Source: Synergistaceae bacterium
GTDB lineage: Bacteria; Synergistota; Synergistia; Synergistales; Aminobacteriaceae
Length of the DNA stretch: 36,909 bases
Reading direction: 5' to 3'
Assembly (NCBI GenBank): GCA_031272145.1
Contig: JAISUL010000046.1
Span: 1-36,909, forward strand
The notes under the pieces were generated by a model. The model did not search any database. It saw only the letters and a program-made list of their open reading frames with translations, and had not been told where the DNA came from. The translations under genes were made by a program, and so were the position numbers. This document shows positions 2,525 through 15,685 of the stretch, piece by piece (the first letter of the stretch is position 1; every line of letters begins with the position of its first letter).

Positions 2525-3553
2525 CTAGGGAGTAAACCCCCGGTTCTCGTTGGGGGGTAGGGGGGCTTGTTCTCCCTTGATGCCCTCGGGGAGCTTGCTT
2601 CCCTCGCTGCGCGGAGAAGATTCGCCGATCTGCCGCAGCACCTCGATCGCCACCTCTAATGCTCGGACGCCGTCGCGTATGCCGACTAGGGGCTGGCGGC
2701 CCATTCGGACGCAGTTTACGAAATGGGCTAGCTCCAGCTTCAGGGGCTCGCACTTCGGGAAGACCGGGCGCTCCAGGATTTCGCGGTTGTCCCCGCGGCG
2801 GCAGCGTATCTCCACGTCCTGAGTCTCGTAGTTGACGGTTATATGGCGCCCGCACTCCATTATGTCCAGCTGCCTCATCTTGCGCTCGGCGACGCGGCTC
2901 ACCAAGATTTGCCCCATCGTCCCGTTCTCAAACGTTATCTGGGCGCACGCAACGTCCTCATGCTCGGAGAGCACGCAACGGCCTGCCGCGGCGATGCGCG
3001 ATATTGGCGACGGCACCAGCGATAGGAAAATGTCTATGTCGTGGATCATGAGGTCGAGCACCACCCCGACGTCGGCGACGCGCGGCGTGAAGGGGCCGAC
3101 TCGGTGGGACTCAAGGAAAATAGGATCGCGAACGTTCCCCGACACGTAGCGCACGGCGCTGTTGAAGCGCTCGACGTGGCCGACCTGAAGCACCAGGCCC
3201 CGCGCGTCGGCTATGCGCAGGAGCTCCTTGGCCTCGGCTAGGGTCGTCGTGACGGGCTTCTCGACCAGCACGTGGACGCCGCGTAAGAGCGCGACGCTGG
3301 CCACGCCGTAGTGCATACTCGTGGGCACAACTATAGACAGGGCGTCGGGCTGCACCCCGTCTATCAGCGCCTCCACGGGGTTAGGCCCCGAAAAGCACGG
3401 CACGCCCAGCCCCTCGGCCACGAAATGGCCCCGTTCCTCGCATGCGTCCGCGACGCCGACCAGCTGCGCGTCAAGAAGCTCCGAGTAGACCCGCGCATGG
3501 CTCTTCCCCAAGTGCCCAACCCCAACGACGCCGACACGTAGAGCGCTGTCCAA
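2525..3553 (-). CDS. Gfo/Idh/MocA-family NAD(P)-dependent oxidoreductase
   Basis: A 342-residue protein with a Rossmann start VGVVGVGHLGKSHARVY (GxGxxG) and the family motif HVLVEKPVTTT near residue 95-105. The C-terminal half includes VGHVERFNSAVRY and DLMIHDIDIFL, typical of sugar dehydrogenases of this family. Homologues are often encoded beside lipid A genes; one characterised relative, GnnA, oxidises C3 of UDP-GlcNAc to make amide-linked lipid A. That role fits the lpx genes just upstream, but no GnnB-type aminotransferase is present, so it is only a possibility. The start is the TTG at 3553, with a GAGGGGGG ribosome-binding stretch. The last ~25 residues (after RQIGES) are low-complexity and proline-rich. 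Confidence 0.8.
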   Translation of the reverse strand: MDSALRVGVVGVGHLGKSHARVYSELLDAQLVGVADACEERGHFVAEGLGVPCFSGPNPVEALIDGVQPDALSIVVPTSMHYGVASVALLRGVHVLVEKPVTTTLAEAKELLRIADARGLVLQVGHVERFNSAVRYVSGNVRDPIFLESHRVGPFTPRVADVGVVLDLMIHDIDIFLSLVPSPISRIAAAGRCVLSEHEDVACAQITFENGTMGQILVSRVAERKMRQLDIMECGRHITVNYETQDVEIRCRRGDNREILERPVFPKCEPLKLELAHFVNCVRMGRQPLVGIRDGVRALEVAIEVLRQIGESSPRSEGSKLPEGIKGEQAPLPPNENRGFTP

Positions 3554-3559
3554 GATAAT

Positions 3560-3582
3560 CCCCCCTCGGGGGCTCAGCCCCC
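3560..3582 (-). promoter_or_regulatory. Alternative hairpins over the oxidoreductase ribosome-binding site
   Basis: On the minus strand a G-tract, a C-tract and a second G-tract follow in order (GGGGGC-TGA-GCCCCC, then GAG-GGGGG). The C-tract can pair with the first G-tract or with the second, which overlaps the ribosome-binding site of the gene starting at 3553. The two hairpins exclude each other. A regulatory role is inference. Confidence 0.3.
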
Positions 3583-3608
3583 TTGTGAAATTATCACGGC
3601 GAGGGCGG

Positions 3609-3636
3609 AAAAAAAGGCGGGGGTCTTAGACCCCCG
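3609..3636 (-). terminator. Intrinsic terminator after rpsT
   Basis: Perfect 8-bp stem CGGGGGTC / GACCCCCG with a 3-nt loop (3618-3636), followed on the minus strand by GCC and seven T (3615-3609). It lies 5 nt past the rpsT stop codon, between rpsT and the oxidoreductase gene. Confidence 0.85.
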
Positions 3637-3641
3637 GAGTC

Positions 3642-3920
3642 CTAAACACTCTGACCCTGTTCCAGCGTCTTTAGGCGGCGCGACATGAGTTTTTTGCGCC
3701 GAGCCGCCGTGTTTTTGTGCATGACGCCCTTCACCACGGCCTTGTCTATGATGCTCTGGGCGACGTTGAAGGTCGCGACCGCTGTTGAGGCGTCCTTCGA
3801 CTCCACGGCCTGAAGCACCTTCTTCACGACGTTTTTGCACCGCGTAGTCCACGACCGATTGTAGATTCGGTTGCGCTCGGACACGCGAACTCGCCTTTCG
3901 GCTGATTTTTTGTTCGGCAT
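3642..3920 (-). CDS. rpsT: 30S ribosomal protein S20
   Basis: A 92-residue, very basic protein starting MPNKKSAERRVRVSERN with VKGVMHKNTAARRKKLMSRR near the C terminus, the standard S20 pattern. S20 binds 16S rRNA in the small subunit. The ATG at 3920 follows GGAGGTGAT, a nearly perfect anti-16S match about 9 nt upstream. The gene has its own promoter, leader and terminator, so it is a separate transcript within an otherwise lipid A-related minus-strand block. The leader contains competing hairpins that could serve S20 autoregulation, which is known in Escherichia coli. Confidence 0.97.
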   Translation of the reverse strand: MPNKKSAERRVRVSERNRIYNRSWTTRCKNVVKKVLQAVESKDASTAVATFNVAQSIIDKAVVKGVMHKNTAARRKKLMSRRLKTLEQGQSV

Positions 3921-3936
3921 TTTTAAGAAATCACCT

Positions 3937-3957
3937 CCCCGCAGGGGTCAAGACCCC
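3937..3957 (-). promoter_or_regulatory. Competing hairpins in the rpsT leader
   Basis: The minus-strand leader reads GGGGTC-TT-GACCCC-TGC-GGGG directly into the GGAGGTGAT ribosome-binding site. The central CCCC can pair with the upstream GGGG or with the downstream GGGG that abuts the Shine-Dalgarno sequence. This could switch ribosome access. The layout is seen directly; the regulatory role is inferred. Confidence 0.4.
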
Positions 3958-3973
3958 GGCCTGAAATGTCGGC

Positions 3974-3979
3974 ATTATA
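3974..3979 (-). promoter_or_regulatory. rpsT promoter, extended -10
   Basis: TGCTATAAT on the minus strand gives an extended -10 element. The best -35 candidate (CTTAAA, 16-nt spacer) is weak. The box is about 55 nt upstream of the rpsT ATG and just beyond the stop codon of the gene at 4002. Confidence 0.6.
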
Positions 3980-4001
3980 GCATAAATGGCCGCTGTTTAA
4001 G

Positions 4002-5099
4002 TTACGACCCCTCGATGGCGTTGCACAGGCGCTGCGCGGCGCCAGCCTCCCCGGACATGTTCAGGAGCTCGGCGGAGACGCGGGACAGCTTGTCTGGGTC
4101 GCGGATGGCGGCGGTCACGTTCAGGGCTAGCCGGCGGGGGGACACCTCGCCCGACACCTCGTCTATGATTGCGCGTCCGGCGAGCCAGTTCGGCCATGAG
4201 AGGAAGCCGCTGCGCTGGCTCAGCTTCTTTTGGAGCGCGCGTTCTTTCAGGCGCGGGCCGAGGACTGGGAGGCGTCCGAGCAGGCCGGGGAGGCCGCTGA
4301 CTGGGATGAGGTTCAGGAAGTCCATGGGCACGGCCACGAGGCATGGGAGCCCGCAGTGCATCATCTCGAGGTTGTTCGTGCCGGGCTGGGTCAGGGCGTA
4401 GTCAGCGCTCTTCATGGCCAGGAGGGGTGTGGCTTTGACCGCGTTGAGCCCTGCGTCGCGCCACGCTGCGACCTCGGCGTCCGGCGCGAAGACCGGGAGC
4501 AGAACCATGTGCTCGACCTCCGACGCCAGGCACTTGAGGTCTCGGACTATCTCGGTGAACCATGCCATGACGCGCCCGCGGATGGCCGGCCTGCTTCCGG
4601 GGCACAGCAGAAGGCGGCGCTCACCGATTTTGGCTGGCAGGGCGTTCTGTTTTTTATCGCCGTCGAAGGCCATGCCCAGGGAGTCCTTCACGAGGTCGCC
4701 TATCACCTCGGCGCCCGGCATGGACTCGGCCATTTTGGGGTAGGCGGTGAAGACCGTTTTTGCCTTCTCCAACCCCTTTTTGGGGCCGTAGGCGTAGCTC
4801 AGCAGCGGGACGCCAGCGCTCTTGGCCAGGCGGCGTCCGAAGATCATATCCCCGCCCAGCTGGACGACGCAGTCGGTTTTCTCGGTCGAGAGGGCGGCAA
4901 GGGTCGAGGCCGCTCCGTCGGGGCCTTCCAGCTTGTCCACGCCCATGCTCGACGCGGCGGTGCGCTCGTGTCCGGACGCGAACTGACACGGCAAAAGCCA
5001 CAGGGACACGGAATGCCCGCGCCCGCGAAGCTCCGCGATGACCGGCCTAGCCCATCCCCAGAGCTCGCCAGGCCCGTTAGTTAGCAGCGACACCCTCAT
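4002..5099 (-). CDS. LpxB-like glycosyltransferase paralogue
   Basis: A 365-residue protein directly downstream of lpxB and overlapping it by 23 nt. It starts MRVSLLTNGPGELWGWARPV, where LpxB has a GExSGD motif. Its C-terminal part keeps the LpxB pattern in degenerate form: TQPGTNNLEMMHCGLPCLVA in place of SGT..LEA, and SWPNWLAGRAIIDE in place of PNxLAGRxxxPE. I read it as a divergent GT19/GT-B-fold paralogue. Its donor and acceptor are unknown; a role in lipid A or another glycolipid is inferred from position. The start is the ATG at 5099; AGGAGG lies about 12 nt upstream. Confidence 0.65.
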   Translation of the reverse strand: MRVSLLTNGPGELWGWARPVIAELRGRGHSVSLWLLPCQFASGHERTAASSMGVDKLEGPDGAASTLAALSTEKTDCVVQLGGDMIFGRRLAKSAGVPLLSYAYGPKKGLEKAKTVFTAYPKMAESMPGAEVIGDLVKDSLGMAFDGDKKQNALPAKIGERRLLLCPGSRPAIRGRVMAWFTEIVRDLKCLASEVEHMVLLPVFAPDAEVAAWRDAGLNAVKATPLLAMKSADYALTQPGTNNLEMMHCGLPCLVAVPMDFLNLIPVSGLPGLLGRLPVLGPRLKERALQKKLSQRSGFLSWPNWLAGRAIIDEVSGEVSPRRLALNVTAAIRDPDKLSRVSAELLNMSGEAGAAQRLCNAIEGS

Positions 5100-15055: not shown

Positions 15056-15292
15056 ACGGCCTCCTTTCTGGTTGGCATCCGTAAAATTACTGAATTTTTC
15101 GGCATCAGGGACGTTGGCGGCGTCCGCCGCGCTATTCGTGTTCATGTTGCTGTTTCCTCCTGCCCGAATTTTGGACGCAAAGGGTCTAAGACCCCCTTAC
15201 CCAATGACGTATTCTACCCGCCTTTCGGCGTAAACGCAAGGGGTCAGGATTTTTTTGTGCTTCTAGTCGATTTTCCGTGGTATAATCCTCTA

Positions 15293-15610
15293 TGGAGGCT
15301 CCGAGTGACATCGGGGCGTAGGGGGTAGTCACCCCCGAGGCTTAGCCCCGCAAACGAAGGGGGGTGAGGCCAATGGGTAGAAGGCACAAGAGCACCGCAG
15401 TTGTTCCGCGGACAACGCTGATTTGGATTAGTGAGAATGACCGTCATTCTTCGTCGACGACCTTGATCTATGAAAAAAGGGTTGCCCAACTTCTTGGACA
15501 ACCCTCGTCTCTAAGTTGCTGCAAGCCCTAGTCCGGCTTTTAGCTCGCTAGGGGCGTAAGTCCCGGCTGAGTTACCAGCCCGGCCGGGCAGCCCTACCTC
15601 GGAGCCTCCA
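15293..15610 (+). ncRNA. Candidate structured RNA or miniature inverted-repeat element of unknown family
   Basis: The ends are perfectly complementary over 13 nt (TGGAGGCTCCGAG at 15293-15305 and its reverse complement at 15598-15610). A TATAAT box at 15281-15286 ends 6 nt before the 5' terminus, where transcription would begin. Inside are several hairpins: GGGGG-TAGTCA-CCCCC nested in GGGGC/GCCCC, GTTGT/ACAAC, GAATGA/TCATTC, AGGGTTG-type (15478-15505), GCCCTAG/CTAGGGGC and GGCTG/CAGCC. A 52-codon frame (15373-15531, MGRRHKSTA...) with a GGGGGGTGA start signal is also present. I find none of the landmarks of RNase P, tmRNA, SRP or 6S RNA. A MITE is the main alternative; no clear target-site duplication is visible. 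Confidence 0.5.
15473..15505 (-). terminator. Minus-strand intrinsic terminator inside the structured element
   Basis: Stem of 12 pairs (15478-15489 with 15494-15505, one G-U in the minus-strand RNA) and a 4-nt GAAG loop, followed on the minus strand by a run of T (15478-15473). It would stop any leftward transcript entering from the right end of the element. Confidence 0.65.
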
Positions 15611-15685
15611 CATTTATATCACACCCCGCAGTTTTTTGCAAGGGGGTAGCTGACCCAAACGCGCGGAAAAGACCCCCCGGCCCGC

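Follow-up and report, generated by a model that had tools for sequence, protein, structure and literature searches.

The window, meaning the whole stretch of 36,909 nt analysed here (contig JAISUL010000046.1 of a Synergistaceae bacterium, assembly GCA_031272145.1), contains at 15270-15670 a repeated unit in which two convergent promoters face each other. The plus-strand promoter precedes the leader of a small-peptide mRNA, and the minus-strand promoter precedes a putative antisense RNA that ends at an intrinsic terminator. The features of the unit are collected in Table 1.

Table 1. Features of the repeated unit, in window coordinates
Feature	Position	Strand	Remarks
Whole repeated unit, with two convergent promoters, peptide mRNA on plus and antisense RNA on minus	15270..15670	.	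Limits set by similarity to the genome's six other loci
Extended -10 TGGTATAAT, promoter of the peptide mRNA	15278..15286	+	Kept in copies C107, C87 and C88; -10-like hexamer here in 38/38 family loci
Left inverted-repeat arm, 5′ end of the peptide mRNA (GGAGGCUCCGAG)	15293..15305	+	
5′ leader hairpin GCUCCGA-GUGACA-UCGGGGC	15298..15317	+	Read directly from the sequence
Leader hairpin GGGGG-UAGUCA-CCCCC	15321..15336	+	
Leader hairpin sequestering the Shine-Dalgarno	15339..15371	+	Predicted fold
Shine-Dalgarno (SD) GGGGGGTGAG / GGGGGGUGAG	15359..15368	+	Matches family GAAAGGGGGUGAG
ATG frame, 52 aa (MGRRHKSTAVVPRTTLIW...)	15373..15528	+	Out of frame with the conserved peptide C-terminus
Conserved peptide frame KKGCPTSWTTLVSKLLQALVRLLAR and stop, open	15474..15551	+	Lacks an SD-linked start; upstream stop 15471-15473
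Intrinsic terminator of the antisense RNA, hairpin and U tract	15473..15506	-	Hairpin and T-rich tail in 6/6 copies
Putative antisense RNA, ~137 nt, 15609 to 15473, presumed antitoxin	15473..15609	-	Six copies in the genome; R1 homologues in G134 and G010
Conserved core GGGCUGCC-hairpin-GGGACUUACGCCC	15552..15594	-	
Right inverted-repeat arm, start of the antisense RNA, identical in sequence to the start of the mRNA	15598..15610	-	
Antisense -10 TATAAA (extended: TGATATAAA)	15613..15618	-	Family has a -10 at the same place
Antisense -35 TTGCAA	15636..15641	-	17-nt spacer; conserved in copies C100, C87 and C13

An initial annotation had described the interval between the repeats as an element with perfectly complementary ends, a promoter at its left edge, many hairpins, a minus-strand terminator and a short frame with a ribosome-binding stretch, and these observations held. 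The arms TGGAGGCTCCGAG (15293-15305) and CTCGGAGCCTCCA (15598-15610) are complementary over 13 nt without mismatch, and the TATAAT at 15281-15286 lies 6 nt ahead of 15293 with TG in front. The 318-nt region is more stable than its shuffles in either strand (z -4.6 for plus, -5.1 for minus). The terminator hairpin runs from 15506 to 15477 with a U tract reaching 15473, and the SD is followed by an ATG at 15373 that opens a frame of 52 aa. The annotation had also noted, by eye, no landmarks of known large RNA families; an Rfam search of the window gave no match at gathering score, and at a loose threshold returned weak matches alone (E 0.33 to 9.4, chance level).

A perfect 13-nt inverted repeat spanning up to ~400 nt is in itself not rare, being expected ~0.2 times in 37 kb by our arithmetic with uniform bases. 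We consider this one real because the arrangement recurs at two other loci of the same genome with different 12-nt motifs, ACGAGGGGCAGG at C17 and TGAGAGGCAGGC at C33. A chance origin of the element as a whole is ruled out by its homologues and their covariation. Similarity among loci of the same genome starts at 15270 on the left and stops near 15670 on the right, so that conservation extends past the repeats by 24 nt on one side and ~60 nt on the other, and this extra sequence consists of the promoters. Since both repeats stand where transcription is expected to start, the inverted repeat would mark the 5′ sequence shared by two transcripts that converge. Short outer repeats TTTTCCGYG, near 15271 and 15670, were weighed as transposon ends; their length is too small to judge. 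Palindromic short motifs such as GGGGTCT-AAGACCCC recur between genes of this genome (window 15180-15200; L007 1320-1400).

A genome-wide search for more copies had been proposed. Searching the window's genome (2.05 Mb in 107 contigs) at the DNA level found seven loci of the element, some internally deleted and one at a contig end. The copies are modular: C100, C87, C13, C88 and C35 share the right half with the window, and C107 and, in part, C13 share the left half, of which C87 has just the promoter and first bases. The antisense RNA is thus present six times in the genome, and four of these copies retain promoter, 5′ end and terminator together. Canonical members of the family described below also lie on C37 (as a tandem pair), C17 and C33. 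Three of the element sites adjoin methyltransferase or glycosyltransferase genes. The short contigs C87 and C88 (G000; L048 and L049) represent a duplicated or collapsed segment, with a methyltransferase gene fragment and the element's left flank in common. Another short repeat, distinct from the element, is CGAAAATCCCCCGGATTTTTTATGG, which occurs on several contigs (L002 ~1457-1485; C47, C46, C41, C40 and C33). Phage and plasmid records gave no match for the window copy, and a phage or plasmid origin of this copy was rejected.

All six copies of the antisense RNA have the terminator hairpin GGUUGUCC...GGGCAACC followed by a T-rich tail. Covariation among the six is slight, with one pair alone. 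When the minus strand is read, G-U pairs outnumber A-C pairs in these copies by 16 to 2 (six of the 16 represent one fixed pair), whereas across the whole family, with one fixed pair left out, the asymmetry vanishes (33 versus 36); choosing the strand by G-U counts therefore works within the window's genome and fails across the family. Breaks in pairing fall in one cell among the four copies with promoter and 5′ end, and the other four in the two promoterless copies. L004 and L005 have an 11-nt insertion, GCGGAAAAGAT, inside the antisense RNA, which is echoed at the right end of C107.

Relatives were found with two covariance models and one sequence pattern. The first model (R1), made from the six antisense RNA copies of the window's genome, detected the RNA in two further genomes of Synergistales (E 4e-12, in another family, and 3e-9); its weaker matches turned out to be bona fide family members. 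The relatives have in common the core GGGCUGCC-hairpin-GGACUUACGCCC. Exact 20-mer patterns matched nothing outside the window's genome, but a gapped core pattern, run against 257 Gb of genome sequence from bacteria and archaea, matched 22 loci, of which 17 were labelled Synergistaceae (by label, counting contigs), among them the complete genome of Fretibacterium fastidiosum. This species has two intact loci, L162 and L163. Five matches outside Synergistaceae (L105, L117, L121, L125 and L126) and the viral contig L128 have neither promoter nor hairpins and resemble chance matches. L114, labelled Prevotellaceae, has the full family anatomy and is probably misbinned.

The second model (R2) was built from the core-pattern loci and located members in 42 of 183 Synergistales genomes, representing 14 of 59 genera, often several times per genome and in tandem arrays. 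At E 0.01 R2 did not recover the window copy itself, which is connected to the family by the R1 matches, the common core, the C-terminus of the peptide, the SD and the anatomy. Covariation analysis of homologues, another check that had been proposed, gave strong covariation in the family-wide alignment: among 61 distinct aligned members both sides change in 14 of 16 pairs, and the covariation score is 0.393, against 0.188 for shuffled alignments and at most 0.163 when the partners are slid. None of the loci of ten relatives matched an Rfam family at gathering score. The tandem arrays L143, L152, L148, L164 and L159 have two to four loci at a spacing of ~230-700 bp, and members within an array differ in peptide and sometimes in 5′ motif. 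One full copy of the locus lies on an IMG/VR viral contig (L127 2626-3000), between a phage portal gene (780-2234) and a minor head gene (3080-4696).

In relatives, the strand opposite the antisense RNA has a promoter and a leader ending in GAAAGGGGGUGAG, directly followed by a start codon and an open frame of ~27-37 aa whose end lies immediately ahead of the core; -10-like hexamers stand at both ends of the locus in all 38 loci. The encoded peptides are cationic and amphipathic, 27-37 aa long, and of the type ...AELIRLFKA, with an AELIR-like motif in 34 of 40; that of F. fastidiosum, for example, reads MERITKLVRALAALARALAELIRLFKA. Their helical moment averages 0.63 versus 0.38 after shuffling, and is the higher of the two in 40/40 peptides. 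For eleven distinct 27-aa members pN/pS is 0.52, below the value for the five other frames. The SD is mostly paired in the predicted folds of 36 of 39 modelled mRNAs. A terminator-like hairpin of the antisense strand lies opposite, and so inside, the peptide-coding stretch at 36 of 40 loci, versus 15 in shuffles, which means that the codons of the peptide spell the antisense terminator too. Pfam, NCBIfam and PADLOC named no toxin above cut-off. A second peptide type, e.g. MKDLLDRIIELLQYISISATVLELILRVIRWLFTH, is found behind the same kind of antisense RNA at L143, L154 and L158.

In the window the plus promoter, leader hairpins, SD and ATG are all retained, and the promoter, SD and leader hairpins are conserved in comparison with C107. 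The first 17 residues of the 52-aa frame are likewise common to the window and C107, and no convincing homologue of this frame turned up in 60 family genomes. The conserved peptide C-terminus, TTLVSKLLQALVRLLAR with its stop at 15549-15551, is in a different frame from the SD-linked ATG. In relative L069 a C-terminus of this type belongs to a single, intact-looking open frame behind an SD (...SGWRALILKLLKLLLRVLA, then stop). Because the C-terminus is in another frame, has a stop just upstream and lacks an SD-linked start, the peptide gene of this copy seems to be broken near 15471-15480, provided that the assembly is correct. No such damage is apparent in the antisense RNA, which, with the peptide frame no longer linked to the SD, is probably the one product of this copy that still works.

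The repeated 5′ motif of the window, GGAGGCUCCGAG, is the same feature as the locus-specific 5′ motifs elsewhere. For the 38 loci where both promoters could be placed, the motif common to both RNA 5′ ends is GGAGAGG in many and GGGGAG, GGGGAT, GCAAGGT or CGAGG elsewhere, so that the sequence varies from locus to locus yet is matched within each. Sharing within a locus averages 6.6 nt, against 5.6 nt when the ends are permuted, and none of 20,000 permutations reached the observed value. Two identical 5′ ends cannot pair with each other, but either one can pair with the sequence opposite the start of the antisense RNA, located close to the mRNA 3′ end if the mRNA extends there. As both RNAs start with the same motif, the mRNA could therefore close on itself. 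For the window this 5′-3′ pairing is predicted with p 0.99, and p is 0.99 or higher at C17 and C33; p>0.5 was reached in only 14 of 39 loci, a count obtained with a folding program without pseudoknots, for which loci with the motif in a hairpin loop would form a pseudoknot and are unscorable. That the mRNA does extend to the antisense 5′ end, and that closure would silence it, we infer by analogy with aapA/IsoA, discussed below.

With a probability of about 0.8, by our estimate, 15270-15670 belongs to a Synergistales family of loci in which a small-peptide gene is under RNA control, with the architecture of type I toxin-antitoxin systems, and represents a diverged copy that has partly decayed. 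The promoters, terminator, core, peptide and common 5′ motif, and an SD buried in a predicted fold, are established at the level of sequence. Among the features expected of a type I system, a gene for a small (<60 aa) hydrophobic or amphipathic peptide is found in the relatives, its frame being interrupted in the window; an overlapping opposite RNA with its own promoter is indicated by the sequence; and a translation start hidden in mRNA structure is predicted. The plus strand would be transcribed from ~15293 into an mRNA whose SD is buried in a leader hairpin, and which in intact relatives would encode a cationic amphipathic helix of 27-37 aa, presumably acting on membranes. The minus strand would yield the 137-nt antisense RNA, covering the 3′ coding part and 3′ UTR of the peptide gene; by pairing with the mRNA this RNA may block or destroy it. 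The mRNA may also hold itself inactive through pairing of its 5′ motif with the stretch close to its 3′ end that is complementary to the start of the antisense RNA. In the window copy, probably just the antisense RNA is functional.

The initial annotation had offered two explanations, an undescribed structured RNA with closed ends and a miniature inverted-repeat transposable element (MITE). A single plus-strand RNA of ~318 nt, closed by a 13-bp end helix, would account for the stable plus-strand fold and the predicted pairing of its ends, and the lack of an Rfam match, the homologues and their covariation do fit an undescribed structured RNA. Yet the minus promoter, terminator and U tract are kept in copies without the left half, and homologues have two convergent promoters and a coding frame. 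The locus thus holds two convergent RNA genes and not one RNA, with the terminator and the short frame, both present as described, belonging to separate transcripts, the one ending the minus-strand RNA and the other lying in the plus-strand mRNA. The closed ends may be real as predicted 5′-3′ closure of that mRNA, but are not the ends of one RNA, and we regard the single-RNA explanation as very improbable. The MITE is no more credible. A non-autonomous element ending in inverted repeats could well give several copies, some internally deleted and one at a contig end, but conservation continues past both repeats into the promoters, so that the repeats are not the ends of the conserved unit, and the repeat sequence differs between loci while matching within each. 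Neither a transposase between the ends nor a target-site duplication was seen, and the matches included no larger transposase-bearing copy. The relative between phage portal and head genes is compatible with spread of the locus by some mobile element, and toxin-antitoxin systems may help a genome to keep mobile DNA.

Two further explanations are unlikely but carry more weight. The antisense RNA could be one of a set of small RNAs, trans-acting or orphan, with the plus strand as leftover sequence: four copies in the genome retain promoter, RNA and terminator, every copy of the window type has a peptide frame that is broken or without leader or promoter, and the core is highly conserved and not linked in cis to one type of gene. 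Conservation of the plus promoter, SD and leader hairpins between the window and C107, and the intact peptide of relatives, argue against this, which may nonetheless be true of the present state of the window's sub-lineage. We similarly doubt that the antisense-controlled peptide is a secreted, phage-related or regulatory product and not a self-toxin. A cationic amphipathic helix would suit several such roles and one copy lies in a phage head-gene cluster, but antisense overlap, a buried SD and tandem multi-copy arrays are typical of type I toxins, as is the weak, below-cut-off similarity to TisB/DinQ-like peptides described below.

Among known systems, hok/Sok has a toxin mRNA with a 5′-3′ fold-back and an antisense RNA, Sok, that overlaps the leader. 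The Synergistales loci resemble it in having a putative antisense RNA and a candidate toxin mRNA, with a fold-back predicted at some loci, and differ in the position of the antisense overlap, which here covers the 3′ coding part and 3′ UTR; no sequence relation to hok/Sok was found. TisB/DinQ-like peptides (PF13939, TIGR04459, NF041473) are also short amphipathic or hydrophobic membrane peptides and gave weak similarity (E 0.0084 to 0.25); membership was rejected, the scores being far below curated cut-offs. With par of pAD1 and the Fst/Ldr family the loci have in common convergent promoters, a small peptide and an intramolecular hairpin that buries the SD (PMC7472228). In par, a bidirectional terminator and direct repeats make the two RNAs complementary (PMC7472228), whereas here inverted repeats give them identical 5′ ends, and the terminator serves the antisense strand alone and is placed in the peptide-coding part. 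The Fst models of Pfam and NCBIfam gave no match at E up to 10.

A further likeness is to aapA/IsoA of Helicobacter, where, in the portion of the published account used here, a long-distance 5′-3′ interaction keeps the full-length toxin mRNA silent (PMC6733600). The same portion describes an mRNA for a small peptide (AapA, which is toxic), an antisense RNA overlapping in cis, several chromosomal copies and hairpins that sequester the SD (PMC6733600), all of which have counterparts here in sequence or predicted fold; a 5′-3′ interaction is predicted for the window and part of the family. Unlike aapA/IsoA, as far as that portion of the account goes, the Synergistales antisense RNA has a conserved core, and a locus-specific 5′ motif is common to both RNAs (PMC6733600). 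No search in this analysis matched the Synergistales peptides to AapA.

Before its own cyanobacterial case, a 2025 paper placed the known type I systems in Proteobacteria, Firmicutes and Tenericutes only (PMC12390103). Our search of the literature available without subscription found no paper linking type I toxin-antitoxin with Synergistetes, and the locus family, widespread in Synergistota, is apparently undescribed. We propose tentatively, at slightly less than even odds, that Synergistota have a multi-copy, partly phage-borne family of toxic peptides under RNA control, in which both RNAs of a locus start with the same tag and the 3′ part of the mRNA is bound either by its own 5′ tag or by the antisense RNA. 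The tag would then serve as the address of each locus among several, and the antisense core, which hardly varies, would form an RNA domain with a function of its own, perhaps as the binding site of a protein. If confirmed, the family would extend type I-like systems to another phylum, in about one quarter of the genomes of the order examined, and would span the cultured F. fastidiosum, tandem arrays and a viral contig. It would also add a structured RNA family to those available for annotation, along with a rule both clean and testable, that one 5′ motif is common to both RNAs of a locus.
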